The translations under genes were made by a program, and so were the position numbers. Under the pieces are notes generated by a model. It was not told the DNA's origin. It was given only the letters and a program-made list of their open reading frames with translations, and did no database searches. Shown here piece after piece: positions 1,095 to 8,184 of a stretch of 64,000 bases of DNA (position 1 is the first letter of the stretch; each line of letters begins with the position of its first letter). This stretch comes from Pedobacter sp. SYSU D00535 (GTDB lineage Bacteria; Bacteroidota; Bacteroidia; Sphingobacteriales; Sphingobacteriaceae), in the NCBI RefSeq assembly GCF_017355855.1, contig NZ_JAFEWD010000002.1:496001-560000 (forward strand). Direction: 5' to 3'.

Positions 1095-2216
1095 TCATTT
1101 CCATTTATTGGCCAGTGCCACAGCTGTTTCTAACATCCAGGGCTTCCAACTCTCTATATTCCAATCCGACTTAGAAAGGGACGAATGCTGGACACGGGAA
1201 TAGGTTTCAGCATAGCTGGAGGAAGTTTCAAGAATCTCAGAAAGCTCTAATTGTTGCTGATAAAGCGCCTCGTCTTCCACAGGCTGCGCTTCCAACAAAA
1301 TGTCCTCAGGAAGAAATCTGTTGACCGGAGCGGCCCCTTCTAACTGAACAGCCCGTTTTACGATTGCCTCCATCTTCAAAAAATCAGCGTAAAAGCCGGT
1401 TTTACTTTCAGCCGTCTTCAAACCGGCGCCCACTTGCTCCATCACCACGTACTTCAGTTCAGGGCATTTAGGGATGGCGAGTTCCAATAGTTGGAATACC
1501 TCTTCAGGTACGAGATCATCGTGGGTGTCACGCCGGATCTGTCTATTGGTTAAATGTTCGGAGCTTTCCCAGCTACCTCCGGAAATATGAATCTCACGGA
1601 CCCGATGCAGGGGATACAGCTGGATCAGCTGGTCGAAATCAAGCTGGAAATTATGAAGTTGACAAAAAAGGTTGTGAAGATCCAGGATGATAAAACCGTT
1701 GATCGGTTCCACAAGCTTCTCGAGAAATGCTCCTTGCCGTTGAACATCGTCTAAGGAAAAAGCAAAAGCTAAATTCTCTAATCCTATTGGGCAATGACAG
1801 GCCTCCTGAATACGTGCAAGCCGGTCGCGGCCTATTGCCAGGGTTTTTTCATTGCATGGGATGTTGAGCGGCGCACCGTGATGGAAGTTAGGACCGGTCA
1901 TGAAGCCGAAGTGCTCGGTAATGTGGTCGAATTTTAGGTGAGAAGCTGTTTGACGGAGCTGCTTTAGCCATTCTTTCTGCTCCGGCAGAAACCGGCCGGA
2001 AAATATAGAGAAGAAGACGCCGTGGCCGATCAGCCTGTTTTCCTTACTGTAAGTATGCAGAAGCTCCTGAAACCAGTCAGGAACCTCTGCAATTTTGTAC
2101 AGGGCATCAAACGACCATTCGATAGCTTCTACTCTTGACTCTGCCAGGAGAGGGATTGTGGCGGCAAGAATATCCCTGTCGAGGTTGCAAGCTACAGAAG
2201 AATAGACCGTCTTCAT
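1095..2216 (-). CDS. DUF692/MNIO-family multinuclear iron RiPP-modifying enzyme
   Basis: The 373-residue protein shows the signature of the DUF692 (MNIO) TIM-barrel family, whose members bind two or three irons and modify ribosomal peptides, often at cysteine. Likely metal ligands seen in order are H65 (GHGVFFS), E101-H102 (ITEHFGF), E147-N148 (GLENLA), D179 and N182 (LDLHN), H210 (EIHISGG), D230-H232 (DTHDD) and E260 (VVMEQVG). Family members are usually about 280 residues; here about 85 extra, mostly helical and acidic residues follow the barrel. No separate partner protein gene, which many MNIO loci carry, lies beside it. The gene starts 11 nt after the stop of the small precursor gene (2228-2392), so the two are almost certainly co-transcribed. 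Assignment to the family is secure; the actual reaction is unknown. Confidence 0.9.
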   Translation of the reverse strand: MKTVYSSVACNLDRDILAATIPLLAESRVEAIEWSFDALYKIAEVPDWFQELLHTYSKENRLIGHGVFFSIFSGRFLPEQKEWLKQLRQTASHLKFDHITEHFGFMTGPNFHHGAPLNIPCNEKTLAIGRDRLARIQEACHCPIGLENLAFAFSLDDVQRQGAFLEKLVEPINGFIILDLHNLFCQLHNFQLDFDQLIQLYPLHRVREIHISGGSWESSEHLTNRQIRRDTHDDLVPEEVFQLLELAIPKCPELKYVVMEQVGAGLKTAESKTGFYADFLKMEAIVKRAVQLEGAAPVNRFLPEDILLEAQPVEDEALYQQQLELSEILETSSSYAETYSRVQHSSLSKSDWNIESWKPWMLETAVALANKWK

Positions 2217-2227
2217 TCAAAAAACAC

Positions 2228-2392
2228 TTATCCCATGCCACAGGCAGGGCAGGGATCTGAAGTCGTTTTTGTCGTTTTTTCTTTAGCCGCTTGTTCCTGC
2301 TCAGGACTTGCTTCGTCCTCGGCCTCACAACTGGTAGTTTGCAGGGTGACACCCAGTAAGATCGCCCCCAAAAGTGCTTTAGGTAATTTCAT
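2228..2392 (-). CDS. Putative RiPP precursor: lipoprotein-type leader with C-terminal CPACGMG
   Basis: This 54-residue reading frame begins MKLPKALLGAILLGVTLQ, a positively charged start and hydrophobic core, followed by TTSC, a relaxed Bacteroidota lipobox with Cys22. Then come about 25 Glu/Ala/Lys/Thr-rich residues, and the protein ends DPCPACGMG. The two cysteines in the CxxC at the extreme C terminus are the obvious substrate for the MNIO enzyme encoded 11 nt downstream. The layout (export signal, charged linker, short Cys-rich core) resembles the exported precursors described for other MNIO clusters. If the lipobox is used, the product would be a lipid-anchored, modified peptide in the envelope. 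The coding call rests on the ATG, the signal-like N terminus, tight spacing to the MNIO gene and the non-random C terminus. Confidence 0.8.
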   Translation of the reverse strand: MKLPKALLGAILLGVTLQTTSCEAEDEASPEQEQAAKEKTTKTTSDPCPACGMG

Positions 2393-2461: not shown

Positions 2462-2469
2462 CAAAATTA
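2462..2469 (-). promoter_or_regulatory. Bacteroidota -7 box upstream of the precursor-MNIO pair
   Basis: On the minus strand the sequence is TAATTTTG, a full match to TAnnTTTG. It lies 70 nt upstream of the precursor ATG and just outside the 3' end of the DUF59 gene. No convincing -33 TTTG was seen at the expected distance. It suggests the RiPP pair can be transcribed separately from the suf operon, although read-through is possible because only a weak AAAAGCTTTT palindrome, with no T-run, lies between them. Confidence 0.45.
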
Positions 2470-2477
2470 GTGAAGGA

Positions 2478-2798
2478 CTATAAAAAGCCTAATTCCAACT
2501 TTGCTTCTTCGCTCATCATTTCCCGATCCCAGGGTGGGTCGAAGGTTATTTCCACCCGTACTTCTTTCACTTCTTCGAGCTCGCCCACTTTTTCCTGAAC
2601 GTCGCGAAGGATCTGATCTGCTGCGGGACAAGCAGGAGCCGTCAGGGTCATGGTGATTTTAGCAATTCCGTTTTCTTCGGTTAGCAGTTCATAAACCAGT
2701 CCTAGTTCGAAGATATCTACCGGTATTTCAGGGTCAAAGACCTCCTTCAGCTTATCAATTACTTTATCTTTTATTCCTAGTTTATCGATCACTATCAT
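2478..2798 (-). CDS. sufT: DUF59/MIP18-family Fe-S assembly protein (SufT-like)
   Basis: A 106-residue protein with the DUF59 core: DPEIPVDIFELGLVY near residue 22, the cysteine motif LTAPACPAAD near residue 52, and a C terminus FDPPWDREMMSEEAKLELG. Relatives help load or mature iron-sulfur clusters and occur as the last gene of many suf operons. Its ATG overlaps the sufE stop by four bases (ATGA), so the two are probably translationally coupled. It is the last suf gene here; the RiPP precursor gene starts 85 nt further on in the same direction. The symbol sufT is used for the family; its exact role in this organism is inferred. Confidence 0.88.
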   Translation of the reverse strand: MIVIDKLGIKDKVIDKLKEVFDPEIPVDIFELGLVYELLTEENGIAKITMTLTAPACPAADQILRDVQEKVGELEEVKEVRVEITFDPPWDREMMSEEAKLELGFL

Positions 2799-3226
2799 GT
2801 CGGCATCTTTTTAGTACTAGCCAGGGCCAGCGCGTATAACTTGATTTGCTTCACCATTGCGAGTAAGCCATTAGAGCGGGTAGGAGACAGGTGTTCTTTT
2901 AAGCCAATCCGATCAATGAAGTATAGCTCTGCATCCCGGATCTCTTCCGGTGTGTATCCCGATAGCACTCTGACAATAAGTCCCACCAAACCTTTAGAGA
3001 TAATGGCGTCGCTATCTGCATAAAAGATCAGCTTCCCGTCCTTATACTCAGGAAACAACCAAACTTTTGATTGGCAGCCTTTAATAATATACTGATCTTG
3101 TTTTAGTTTCGGATCCATTTCGGGCAGTTCCTTTGCTTCCTCGATAATGTGTTCGTACTTGTCCATCCAGTCGCCAAGGAACTCGAATTCTTCTATCAGC
3201 TCGTCTTGTTTTTCGTTAATCGTCAT
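2795..3226 (-). CDS. sufE: SufE sulfur-acceptor protein
   Basis: At 143 residues it has the normal SufE size and carries the conserved acceptor cysteine C51 in KGCQSKVWL. SufE takes persulfide sulfur from the desulfurase SufS and hands it to the SufBCD scaffold in the cytoplasm. It starts 10 nt after the sufS stop and overlaps sufT, which fits a single transcript. The C-terminal IGLKEHLSPTRSNGLLAM segment is typical of the family. No oddities were seen. Confidence 0.95.
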   Translation of the reverse strand: MTINEKQDELIEEFEFLGDWMDKYEHIIEEAKELPEMDPKLKQDQYIIKGCQSKVWLFPEYKDGKLIFYADSDAIISKGLVGLIVRVLSGYTPEEIRDAELYFIDRIGLKEHLSPTRSNGLLAMVKQIKLYALALASTKKMPT

Positions 3227-3236
3227 CCTGATCTTT

Positions 3237-4490
3237 TTATACCAGCATTTTTATTGCTCTTCTAAGGCTCTCCAAAAACTTGTCGATTTCTTCCATGGTG
3301 TTGTAGACAGCAAAGGAAGCGCGCACAGTTCCAGGGATACAGAAGAAGTCCATAATAGGCTGGGTACAATGGTGCCCGGTCCTTACCGCTATTCCCATTT
3401 TATCAAGCAACACACCTACATCATAAGGGTGGGCTCCGCGAATATTGAGCGAAAGAGAACTTGCTTTGGCTTTTGCTGTTCCGATAATCTGTACTTCAGG
3501 TAGTTGTAATACCTGTTCTGTCGCATATTTTAGTAGTCCCGCTTCAAACCTGGCGATTTCATTTATCCCAATTTCCCGGATAAAATCTACCGCTGCTTTT
3601 AATGTAATGGCTCCCTCGATGTGTGGCGTCCCTGCTTCGAATTTAAAAGGAAGGTCGTTGTATTCCGTCTTAACGAAAGTGACCGTTTTAATCATGTCAC
3701 CCCCTCCCTGATACGGAGGAATTTTATTCAGCCATTCTTCCTTCCCGTAAAGGACACCGATTCCGGTAGGACCGTACATTTTATGTCCGGAAAAGACGAG
3801 AAAGTCGCAATCGAGACTTTGAACATCTATGGGAATATGGTGAACAGCCTGGGCAGCGTCGATTAGTACGGCGCTTCCGTTTTTGTGGGCCAGTTCTATA
3901 ATTTCCTTCACGGGATTGATAGTTCCGAGCGTGTTGGAAACATAACTCACTGCCACGATTTTTACTGTTTCGTCCAGAAGCTTTTCAAACTCATCAAGAA
4001 TGATTTCACCGTTTTCGTCGATAGGGATTACCTTGAGCGTGGCATTCCGCTTCTCGCAAAGCATCTGCCAGGGCACGATATTCGAATGGTGTTCCAGTGA
4101 GGTAATGACAACAGAGTCTCCCTCGTTCACCGCATAACGACCGAAACAATCTGCTACAAGGTTGATACCTTCAGTCGTTCCTTTGGTAAAGATTACTTCT
4201 TTAGATTGCCTCGCATTGATAAATTCCGCTATCGTATTCCGGCTTATTTCATATGCATCTGTCGCCTTCTGACTAAGATAATGTACCCCCCTGTGAATAT
4301 TACTGTTCATCTCCACGTAATACTTGTTGGTGGCATGGATCACCTTCCATGGCTTTTGAGTGGTAGCTGCATTGTCCAAATAGATCAGCGGCTTTCCAAA
4401 CACGTCCTGATGTAAAGCAGGAAATTCATGGCGTACGGGAGCACCCTGATATTCAAGATATGAATAATTTATTTCTGACTTAATTTCCAT
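3237..4490 (-). CDS. sufS: Cysteine desulfurase SufS
   Basis: A 417-residue PLP enzyme of the SufS/CsdA group that removes sulfur from cysteine for Fe-S cluster assembly. Visible features are LDNAATTQKP near residue 38, the histidine pair in SLEHHSN, D211 in DAAQA (PLP nitrogen), the Schiff-base lysine K237 in FSGHKMYGPTG, R370 and the persulfide-bearing C375 in RTGHHCTQP. The N terminus is slightly extended (about 20 residues before HEFPAL). It lies 23 nt after sufD and 10 nt before sufE in the same operon. Confidence 0.96.
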   Translation of the reverse strand: MEIKSEINYSYLEYQGAPVRHEFPALHQDVFGKPLIYLDNAATTQKPWKVIHATNKYYVEMNSNIHRGVHYLSQKATDAYEISRNTIAEFINARQSKEVIFTKGTTEGINLVADCFGRYAVNEGDSVVITSLEHHSNIVPWQMLCEKRNATLKVIPIDENGEIILDEFEKLLDETVKIVAVSYVSNTLGTINPVKEIIELAHKNGSAVLIDAAQAVHHIPIDVQSLDCDFLVFSGHKMYGPTGIGVLYGKEEWLNKIPPYQGGGDMIKTVTFVKTEYNDLPFKFEAGTPHIEGAITLKAAVDFIREIGINEIARFEAGLLKYATEQVLQLPEVQIIGTAKAKASSLSLNIRGAHPYDVGVLLDKMGIAVRTGHHCTQPIMDFFCIPGTVRASFAVYNTMEEIDKFLESLRRAIKMLV

Positions 4491-4513
4491 TAGTCTCCTT
4501 TCTGATGATCCGG

Positions 4514-5836
4514 TTAGGCGGTTACGAGGCTGTCCGTATCCAACTTAGCTTGCAATAGCTGAAGCACGTATTCCTGCAGTGCCTTTATTGGTATTCGGGA
4601 ATGCACGTCCAGAACAAAGGCCTCTATCAGCATTTTTCTTGCTCTTTCTTCACTAATTCCGCGTGTTTTTAAATAGAAAAGCGCCTGCTCATCTATCTGC
4701 CCGACAGTAGATCCATGTGAACATTTCACGTCATCCGCAAATATCTCGAGCTGAGGTTTGCTATTAATGGTAGCCTGATCGCTCAAGAGGATATTGTTGT
4801 TCTGTTGAAAAGCATTTGTTTTTTGTGCATCCAGACGTACAAATATCTTCCCATTAAACACCCCATGGGAGCGATCCATCATGATTCCTTTATAGAGCTC
4901 CATGCTGTTTGAGTTGGGCATTTGATGATCAACCACCGTATGATTATCTACGTGTTGTGTTCCATTTGTAATGTATGAACCTAGTAGATTGGTCTCAGTA
5001 ACGCTGCCTTTCAACCTGCAGTTAAAGTTGTTGCGGATGAAAGCTGCGTTCCCCAGCGCAAGATTAGAATTGTTATATACACTTGTCTTAAATTGCTCCA
5101 CCTCGCGATGATGAATCAAGTTCAGGTCTTCTGCGGCGGCGTTAATGAGATGGGTATGCAATACAGCCGACTGCGCAACTTGAACTTCACTCACGTAACT
5201 CGCAAGGACAGACGCTTGTCCATCTGAGTGGAAGGTTTCAATTAGCGTCGACTCGCTCAATTCCTCTGCAATAACCAGCAAGCGGTAAGGAATAATGGAA
5301 GGAGAGCCGGCTTCACTGAACTTGTGGATCAGATGGATCGGCTTTTCGATCAGTTTTTTCGCTTTGACGTGCAGCACATAGAAGTTTTTGAAGAACGCTG
5401 TATTGAACGCAAGCATAGCGTTGTTATCATCCACTGCTATGCTTCCTAACAGCTGCGAGTAGGAGGGATTAGCAAGGGCTGCCTGTGTGTCCAGGAAGAT
5501 AAGCCCCTCCGGCAGCACATCGCTCTGTTCTATTGCGAGGACGCCATTGATAAGGACCAGCCGGCAGGCATCTAAGCCAGCAATGGATTCCTCAGCTTTT
5601 GCAAACGAGATACTTGGTGGCCGTAGGCTGAAGTCTTGCTTTAGAATTCGGTTGAGGTTCGTGAAACGCCACTCCTCGTCTTTAATAGATGGAAACCCCT
5701 TCCGACTAAAGACCTGAAACGCTGCCGCTCGTTTGGCAAGCAAAGTTTCGTCCTCGAAAGACCGTTCCGGAAGATGATCTTTTTCGAAGCTTTCTATAAG
5801 CGATTGATATGTTGAATTAAATATTCCCTGTTCCAT
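4514..5836 (-). CDS. sufD: Fe-S cluster scaffold subunit SufD
   Basis: This 440-residue protein is the SufD partner of SufB and SufC in the SufBCD scaffold. Recognisable parts are the N-terminal helical region with GFPSIKDEEWRFTNL, the beta-helix core, DDVKCSHGSTVGQIDEQALFY near residue 370, and the C-terminal LKTRGISEERARKMLIEAF. The conserved C and H in KCSHG are present. The family is well known to diverge strongly at the N terminus, as it does here. It begins 57 nt after the sufC stop. Confidence 0.94.
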   Translation of the reverse strand: MEQGIFNSTYQSLIESFEKDHLPERSFEDETLLAKRAAAFQVFSRKGFPSIKDEEWRFTNLNRILKQDFSLRPPSISFAKAEESIAGLDACRLVLINGVLAIEQSDVLPEGLIFLDTQAALANPSYSQLLGSIAVDDNNAMLAFNTAFFKNFYVLHVKAKKLIEKPIHLIHKFSEAGSPSIIPYRLLVIAEELSESTLIETFHSDGQASVLASYVSEVQVAQSAVLHTHLINAAAEDLNLIHHREVEQFKTSVYNNSNLALGNAAFIRNNFNCRLKGSVTETNLLGSYITNGTQHVDNHTVVDHQMPNSNSMELYKGIMMDRSHGVFNGKIFVRLDAQKTNAFQQNNNILLSDQATINSKPQLEIFADDVKCSHGSTVGQIDEQALFYLKTRGISEERARKMLIEAFVLDVHSRIPIKALQEYVLQLLQAKLDTDSLVTA

Positions 5837-5893
5837 TCTTTTACTCTTGGAGTTAAATCAAAAAGAGTTAGGTCGGTGATTGTCTGGAAGTCC

Positions 5894-6649
5894 TTAACCT
5901 CCTACGACTTCCTCGCGCAACCAGTCGTAACCTTTCTCCTCCAGTTGCAGTGCGAGATCCTTGCTGCCAGATTTGACGATTCTGCCTTCGAACAGGATAT
6001 GTACCACATCCGGGACAATATAGTCGAGCAAACGCTGATAGTGAGTAATCACCAGAAAAGCATTTTGTTCTGAGCGTAGTTTGTTGACACCTGCAGCCAC
6101 TACCCGTAGCGCGTCGATATCCAATCCTGAATCTGTTTCATCCAGAATAGCCAGCTTTGGCTCGAGCATAGCCAACTGTAAGATCTCATTACGTTTTTTC
6201 TCGCCGCCAGAAAATCCTTCATTAACTGAACGGTTCACGAGCGAAGTTTTAAGTTCCACCAGTTCCTGCTTTTGCTTAAGCAACTGCATAAACTCTTTCG
6301 CTGAAAGGGGAGGCAGACCTTTATGAGTCCGTATTTCTTCGAGTGCAGTTTTAAGGAATGTCATATTGGACACGCCAGGGATTTCCACGGGGTATTGAAA
6401 GGCTAGAAATAGTCCTTCCCGCGCGCGTTCCTCAGGAGCAAGGTCGAGCAGGTCCTTACCTTCAAAAAGAGCTTCCCCGCCGGTAATTTCAAAGCCTGGA
6501 TTGCCTGCCAGCACGGAAGCTAAGGTACTTTTCCCAGAACCATTCGGGCCCATAATTGCATGGATTTCGCCCGCTTTAATTTCCAGGTCGATACCTTTCA
6601 GTATCTCTTTGTCGTCAACTTTCGCCTGTAAGTTTTTTATCTTTAACAT
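5894..6649 (-). CDS. sufC: Fe-S assembly ATPase SufC
   Basis: A 251-residue ABC-type ATPase that drives conformational change in the SufBCD complex. Walker A is GPNGSGKST (34-42), the signature is [10 protein letters not shown] (146-155) and Walker B is [12 protein letters not shown] (167-178). The KRNE form of the signature is typical of SufC and not of transport ATPases. There are no membrane segments. It lies 92 nt downstream of sufB, the largest gap in the operon, and that gap holds a hairpin (6671-6701). Confidence 0.97.
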
Positions 6650-6670
6650 AGCTTATATTAATTTTAAAGG

Positions 6671-6701
6671 CCAGAATGACGCTTGTGTCGTTGCATTCTG
6701 G
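6671..6701 (-). other. Inverted repeat between sufB and sufC
   Basis: CCAGAATG (6671-6678) and CATTCTGG (6694-6701) form a perfect 8-bp stem with a 15-nt loop in the mRNA between sufB and sufC. There is no T-run after it on the minus strand (the sequence continues CCTTTAAAATT), so it is not a standard terminator. It could stabilise or process the sufB message, which would allow different sufB and sufCDSE levels; that is inference. Confidence 0.4.
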
Positions 6702-6741
6702 TTTTGATAACGAACATATTTATTCCCTTCCGGGAGCGTCT

Positions 6742-8184
6742 TTATCCTACACTTCCATCCAGTGAAACTGCCAGCAACTTCCTGGCCTCTACAGCAAACT
6801 CCATGGGCAGCTTATTTAAAACTTCACTTGCATACCCGTTTACAATTAAGGCTACTGCTTTCTCTGTATCGATACCTCTCTGATTTAAATAGAAGATCTG
6901 GTCTTCTGCAATTTTAGAAGTGGTAGCCTCATGTTCTATCACCGAAGAGCTGTTCCGGTTCTCAATGTAAGGAAAAGTATGGGCGCCACAACGGTCACCT
7001 ATCAGTAGCGAATCGCACTGGGTAAAATTCCTGGATCCAGGCGCCGAGGCGTGGATGCTTACCTGCCCCCGGTAGCTATTGTGGCTGTTACCTGCGGAGA
7101 TTCCTTTTGAGATGATCCTGCTGCGTGTGTTCTTGCCCAGGTGGATCATTTTAGTACCGGTATCGGCCAATTGCTTGTTTCTGGTCAAGGCCACCGAATA
7201 AAATTCACCTACCGAATTGTCGCCTTTCAGGATTACGCTAGGATACTTCCAGGTAATCGCAGAACCGGTTTCAACCTGCGTCCAGGAGATCTTCGAGTTT
7301 TTTCCTTTGCAGATCCCACGCTTGGTAACAAAGTTATAGATACCGCCTTTCCCTTCTTTATCTCCGGGATACCAATTCTGGACTGTCGAGTATTTTATTT
7401 CAGCGTTATCTAAAGCTATAAGCTCCACCACTGCCGCATGCAATTGGTTCTCGTCGCGCATAGGAGCAGTACATCCTTCAAGATAGCTGACATAACTTCC
7501 TTCGTCGGCTACGAGTAAGGTTCGTTCAAACTGCCCCGTATTCTGCGAGTTGATGCGGAAATAGGTAGACAACTCCATCGGACATCGAACACCTTTTGGT
7601 ATGTAGGCAAAAGAGCCGTCGGAAAACACTGCTGCATTTAAGGCCGCAAAGACATTATCTGTTTGTGGTACTACAGTTCCCAGGTATTTTTTCACCAGTT
7701 CAGGATGATTTTGGACCGCTTCCCCGAATGAACAGAAGATAATACCCTGCTCTGCAAGTTTCTCCCGGAATGTTGTTGCCACCGACACGCTGTCAAAAAC
7801 AGCGTCTACTGCTACTCCCGATAGTAATTTCTGTTCTTCCAGCGGAATGCCTAACTTATTAAAAGTGTCTAGCAACTCTGGGTCCACCTCATCGAGACTT
7901 TTTAGCTGATTTTTCTTTGGCGCAGCGAAATAGGAAATGCCCTGGAAATCAATTTCAGGCATTGGAAAGTTCTGCCAATCCGGCATAGACATCTGCAGGA
8001 AATGCTTGAAAGCCTTCAATCGCCACTCAAGCATCCATTCAGGTTCGTTTTTCTTTTCGGATATATAGCGTATGGTGTCTTCATTTAGCCCTTTAGGGGC
8101 CAATTCCATCTCTATGTTAGTAGTAAATCCGTAGTCATACTCATTGGTCGCCAATGTCGACAATAAGTGTTCATCTTTACTCAT
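6742..8184 (-). CDS. sufB: Fe-S cluster scaffold subunit SufB
   Basis: A 480-residue SufB, first gene of the operon sufB-C-D-S-E-T. The family landmarks are clear: [18 protein letters not shown] near residue 196, [10 protein letters not shown] near 235, [17 protein letters not shown] near 258, and the C-terminal [20 protein letters not shown] with [16 protein letters not shown]. SufB is the main site of cluster assembly in the SufBC2D complex. No Rrf2/IscR-type regulator gene lies next to it. The 5' leader has a short CAGCC-GGGAA-GGCTG hairpin just before the start; its role is unknown. Confidence 0.97.

Follow-up and report, generated by a model that had tools for sequence, protein, structure and literature searches.

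A two-gene MNIO locus of Pedobacter sp. SYSU D00535 that very likely belongs to the DybA/DybH type of RiPP lipoproteins

Introduction

The closest described system is DybA/DybH of Dyadobacter crusticola (Chen et al. 2025 preprint, PMC12636315), cited here, like the other papers below, from the portion of its text available to us. The precursor DybA is modified by DybH alone, with a mass change of -4.03 Da at its CPACGMG motif, and NMR assigned a macrocycle and a hydantoin to the product. One motif thiol lies in the macrocycle and one is free, and an internal Cys of DybA is lipidated in E. coli. A change of -4 Da was reported for DybH, ChsH and HymH. In Bacteroidota, according to the same preprint, an MNIO and its precursor can form the whole cluster.

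The chryseobasin system of Chryseobacterium, ChrA/ChrH, shares its CPACGMG motif and MNIO subfamily with the locus described here (PMC10214503). Its cluster is larger, including a DUF1772 protein (ChrI), an epimerase and a peptidase, and its product is S-methylated, at +10 Da (PMC10214503). ChrA has a signal-peptidase-I signal, unlike the probable lipoprotein signal of the present precursor, and ArlAH gave a mixture of both products, with -4 and +10 Da (PMC12636315). Bufferins, oxazolins, methanobactin and pearlin (TglH) share the MNIO fold and iron ligands, but have other precursor motifs and partner proteins.

The present locus lies in a window of 64,000 nucleotides, meaning the whole stretch of DNA analysed. 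With DybA/DybH it has in common two genes, a CPACGMG end, a Cys after a predicted signal sequence, a ChrH-like MNIO with an extra C-terminal domain, and no partner-protein gene next to the pair. It differs in its organism and in its position after a SUF operon, and the likeness is judged through family models. In all likelihood, the locus is a DybA/DybH-type RiPP-lipoprotein (‘DAG-RiPP’) cassette, because its precursor passes the NCBIfam model NF050125 and not the ChrA model, the iron ligands and Cys22 are present, and the pair is conserved.

A lipoprotein RiPP type ending in CPACGMG is already described in the available text of PMC12636315 and has its own NCBIfam model, so the window locus would be a further member of that kind. 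A first, sequence-only reading had proposed a possible relative of the Chryseobacterium system that was not wholly new; the kinship stands, while the room left for novelty closes, since the precursor type is described and model NF050125 exists. With the related loci read here, it enlarges a class of lipidated RiPPs that was described very recently by members found independently.

Structure of the locus

The features of the locus are as follows.

1095..2216, minus strand: MNIO (DUF692) gene encoding 373 aa, of the ChrH/DybH subfamily, with the additional domain at the C terminus (PF05114, NF050165, Foldseek)
2228..2392, minus strand: precursor gene, 54 aa, DybA-type (NF050125 ChrA_rel_RiPP; frame read and NCBIfam match)
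2231..2251, minus strand: CPACGMG C-terminal motif, predicted macrocycle and hydantoin site (pattern scans and loci read; chemistry from the available text of PMC12636315)
2252..2326, minus strand: variable linker, 25 codons (mean pairwise identity 31% in 21 pairs of relatives)
2327..2392, minus strand: signal peptide, codons 1-22, ending in Cys22, the predicted lipidation site (context TTSC; precursors that pass NF050125 share a Cys where the signal ends)
2462..2492, minus strand: possible Bacteroidota-type promoter, TTAG-N19-TAATTTTG (one mismatch to consensus)
2478..8184, minus strand: SUF Fe-S assembly genes sufB-C-D-S-E-T, upstream, given as context and not as part of the system (NCBIfam/Pfam)

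The 54-codon frame (2392-2228) and the DUF692/MNIO gene (2216-1095) that comes after it lie 11 nt apart. Frames, strand, gap and CPACGMG end were all re-read in the sequence as previously given, with both genes on the minus strand. The DNA pattern for CPxCGxG plus a stop has a single match in the whole genome, at the 3' end of the precursor gene, and this exact pattern therefore yields no second MNIO substrate elsewhere in the genome. The window MNIO is also the sole PF05114 match in the genome.

Related loci were read in 12 cases: the window, L002, G003, G769, G074, G119, G564, G1043, G261, G315, G101 and a plasmid of Hymenobacter volaticus. In 11 of these 12 MNIO loci, a same-strand frame ending in CPxCGxG lies upstream, at a spacing of 2-27 nt or in short overlap except in G1043; the MNIO starts in L002, L032 and L034 are our choice and give overlaps of 16 nt with the precursor. 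The search for such upstream frames in Bacteroidota, which the sequence-only reading had proposed, thus returned the expected pairs with a variable linker. Its worry that the motif codons might change without keeping the motif is answered by synonymous differences, with CPxCGxG retained in 12/12 precursors (11 loci).

By these comparisons, the 54-codon frame is a conserved gene. Its shortness would suit a chance frame, with the MNIO acting on something else, but that reading is scarcely credible beside a match to a curated family at E 2.3e-22, the similar frames at related loci and the lone CPxCGxG-stop in the genome. The proposal that the two genes form an MNIO RiPP locus akin to the Chryseobacterium system, with a precursor destined for export, is upheld. 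The accompanying remarks that the precursor had gone uncalled and is too short for ordinary gene finding find no support, and a curated model covers it.

The MNIO enzyme

The window MNIO scores 107.2 bits against Pfam PF05114 (cut-off 25); with the ligands and Foldseek matches given below, it belongs to the MNIO superfamily, which has a TIM-barrel fold. Its nearest curated model is NF050165 (MNIO_ChrH), at 399.8 bits and under the equivalog cut-off of 600, so that the sequence is compatible with a product at either -4 or +10 Da. The match spans profile positions 11-360 of 363 and therefore takes in the extra C-terminal domain that the ChrH subfamily has. C-terminal helices are predicted at 316-372 in a low-confidence AlphaFold model (two sequences, mean pLDDT 60.5, poor). 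Weak as this model is, TglH and MbnB chains fill the first seven places among its Foldseek matches.

In TglH, the iron ligands of sites 1 and 2 are His71, His107, Glu151, Asp184, His216 and Glu258, and those of site 3 are Asp184, Asn187, Asp229 and His231 (PMC10880893). A phmmer alignment to 8hci maps E147, D179, N182, H210, D230, H232 and E260 of the window enzyme onto seven of the nine ligand residues. H65 and H102 fall outside this alignment and align with His residues of another MNIO, 3bww; they are thus putative ligands and the presumed equivalents of TglH His71 and His107. All nine are invariant in an alignment of 11 sequences (A1). The earlier statement that the likely iron ligands are all present agrees with this, seven by alignment and two by inference.

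The same reading had suggested a metal binder. A role in buffering copper or another metal, as with bufferins or methanobactin, would be in keeping with the shared enzyme superfamily, the CxxC in the precursor and the free thiol in the product of a relative. Yet the enzyme scores 88.9 bits against BufB (cut-off 310) and 24.8 bits against MbnB (cut-off 325), lies far under the HvfB cut-off, and has no TglH model among its NCBIfam matches. The DybA product, which keeps one free thiol, is reported to be without an absorbance feature of the methanobactin or bufferin kind (PMC12636315). A metal buffer is highly improbable, and the suggestion of a metal binder is left unsupported.

No partner-protein family was found by NCBIfam and Pfam in the genes adjoining the pair (428-1072, sufT and sufE). 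The first of these, convergent with the MNIO gene, encodes 214 aa that begin like a lipoprotein and have no significant family match.

The precursor peptide and its proposed product

The precursor (MKLPKALLGAILLGVTLQTTSCEAEDEASPEQEQAAKEKTTKTTSDPCPACGMG, 54 aa) matches NF050125, ‘chryseobasin-related MNIO class RiPP peptide’, at 79.5 bits (cut-off 40), and reaches 22.5 bits against the ChrA model NF050124 (cut-off 50), so that both window proteins fall below the chryseobasin cut-offs. We infer that NF050125 corresponds to the DybA type. Cys22 follows a hydrophobic stretch, as in six other NF050125 members. Its lipobox context, TTSC, is weak: Thr and Gln stand at -3 and -4, which by the usual rules we take to make a weak lipobox. 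The frame begins with a signal-like stretch, in line with the earlier reading; what that reading had not included is Cys22, which probably marks this stretch as a lipoprotein signal.

A chryseobasin proper would have an MNIO that also S-methylates (+10 Da) and a peptide secreted through signal peptidase I and not lipidated. The motif is the same, ChrH is the nearest curated enzyme model, and five precursors, from four of the related loci, lack a Cys where the signal ends. The window precursor, however, fails the ChrA model, passes a separate ChrA-related model and has Cys22, and the three enzymes named above gave -4 Da (PMC12636315), which together make a chryseobasin proper quite improbable. 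Because of the ArlAH mixture (PMC12636315), the sequence still allows methylation.

By analogy with DybA, the iron enzyme of the preferred DAG-RiPP cassette very probably rewrites the last seven residues of the precursor into a ring. Once the precursor is made, its C-terminal CPACGMG would enter the active site of the cytoplasmic MNIO without a partner protein. The enzyme, relying on O2 and on a centre of two or three irons, would remove four hydrogens from the motif, linking its two cysteines in a thioether macrocycle and rearranging the backbone to a hydantoin, with one free thiol and a change of -4.03 Da. The signal peptide would then direct Sec export, Lgt would put diacylglycerol on Cys22, and LspA would cut before it; an N-acyl chain may follow. 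The resulting lipopeptide of 33 residues would stay anchored in the membrane, its free end bearing the modified ring. All four steps are carried over to the window locus by analogy, and the final membrane-anchored location is presumed for DybA too. As a guess at its role, the membrane-displayed ring might bind something at the cell envelope. The LysC fragment TTSDPCPACGMG has an unmodified monoisotopic mass of 1138.409.

A surface-export signal was considered and rejected. The published motif is C-X-K-(D/E)2 (PMC5080379), which by eye is absent from the window precursor, where CEAEDE stands instead. By eye it fits the precursors of G003 and G769, two of the seven that carry a lipoprotein Cys, and not that of the window, so surface display is not claimed.

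Genomic neighbourhood

A functional link with the SUF genes was likewise rejected. With the six SUF proteins of the window as tblastn queries, none of the 11 other loci (9-18 kb each) has a SUF gene; the sole matches, at 25-29%, are to sufS (L032) and sufC (L041, L048) and are read as general relatives. In the same-genus genome G002, the SUF operon has other genes after sufT, and there is no MNIO match. The adjacency is probably incidental, because SUF is absent at 11/11 other loci, G002 differs after sufT, and the pair has a promoter candidate of its own. The loci read show that the two-gene unit occurs without the neighbour genes of the window.

The Bacteroidota promoter consensus is TTTG-N19-21-TAnnTTTG. 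The -7 element of the candidate falls between sufT and the precursor gene, in a gap of 85 nt, and the last part of sufT holds the -33 element. At the density of the pattern across the window, about 0.006 occurrences are expected per 85 nt of one strand. Null results came from a sigma-70 promoter scan (3 sites; shuffles 1.6, sd 1.3) and a terminator scan (1 site; shuffles 2.4, sd 1.7).

Distribution and variation of related loci

The MNIO_ChrH enzyme subfamily is sparse. Matches occur in 4/400 genomes of the order and 5/340 of the class (E up to 1e-40 for both); with an E limit of 1e-30, the phylum sample gave 6/395. These samples overlap, and the genome itself is counted in each figure. Two other genomes of the genus have no MNIO_ChrH match, and a direct scan of the genome collection confirmed one relative. 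On the Hymenobacter volaticus plasmid NZ_CP095062.1, the precursor-MNIO pair adjoins ParA and replication-initiation genes (L049, 1230-9119); the PLSDB gene table, described as incomplete, does not list its precursor (7791-7958). This patchy spread and the plasmid copy together suggest that the pair may move between genomes. The available main text of PMC12636315 uses none of the terms horizontal, plasmid-borne, surface-exposed and iron-sulfur.

Twelve precursors are encoded in the 11 loci. A Cys stands at the signal end in seven of them, the window included, and all seven pass NF050125; the five that lack it (four loci) fall under the cut-off, among them that of G315, at 22.7 bits from the phylum scan, the other four having been scanned directly. 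The motif varies as CPGCGMG (G003, G1043), CPPCGMG (G1043) and CPPCGKG (G564).

In G1043, the two CPxCGxG frames lie 169 and 467 nt upstream of a single MNIO (L048, 9058-9565, minus strand), as tandem precursors ending in CPGCGMG and CPPCGMG; both are without Cys at the signal end and under the NCBIfam precursor cut-offs. The G564 precursor (L041, 9604-9810, minus strand), in which Lys replaces the Met of the motif, is also under these cut-offs.

G101 has no CPxCGxG end either near its MNIO, among frames under 300 aa, or in the genome. Its MNIO has 292 aa and is without the extra C-terminal domain. On contig C41 (L035, 401-5254), the MNIO is followed by proteins whose similarity to S41 C-terminal proteases and to TPR repeats is weak and partial, an arrangement that recalls the split cyanobacterial type in the available text of PMC12636315. 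L035 might, at a guess, be a foreign contig in this assembly.

In the phylum sample, the CPxCGxG DNA pattern matched in 8/395 genomes, five times beside a ChrH-type MNIO; the remaining three are not true motif-plus-stop ends (one in-frame stop, two ending TGG), and the reversed control pattern matched in three genomes (counted from the listing). NF050125 matched in 7/395 at E 0.001, and three matches were over the cut-off (G000, G074, G119). The four below it comprise the G315 precursor without Cys and partial matches in G131, G307 and G385, which fall at the start of frames of 201-323 aa (L016, L014 and L015, respectively).

Conservation of the signal peptide

The N-terminal part of the precursor has been proposed to be under relaxed selection (PMC12636315). 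When the seven loci whose precursors carry a lipoprotein Cys are compared in pairs (21 in all), mean identity is 58% in the signal, 31% in the linker and 58% in the MNIO, and signal identity exceeds MNIO identity in only 10/21 pairs. As controls, three window lipoproteins (GldK, an M48 BepA-like protein and one more) were compared with their best matches in G003 and G769. The M48 control had no full-length counterpart in G003 and was dropped there, leaving five of six possible pairs, whose signals are 22-42% and mature parts 44-70% identical. Unrelated lipoprotein signals average 34% and reach at most 50% (31 pairs); the L061 signal, which was ended at the first of two Cys lying close together and may be 1-2 residues short, is outside this set. 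Precursor signals against unrelated ones reach 53%, and the lowest precursor pairs stand at 45%. The controls are few, with orthology by best match, and gapped alignment of short stretches raises all identities. On these comparisons, the proposal of relaxed selection would be qualified: the linker appears to fit it and the signal peptide does not.

It is conceivable, if rather unlikely, that the signal peptide does more than direct export, either holding the precursor for the MNIO before export or giving rise to an active freed fragment, in a two-gene cassette mobile among Bacteroidota, plasmids included.

Between the window and the Hymenobacter plasmid, 18/22 signal residues are identical, and 5/17 identical non-Met residues share their codon. 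In the MNIO, codons are shared at 76/216 identical residues (Met and Trp left out). This codon usage points to conservation at the protein level and not to recent DNA exchange.
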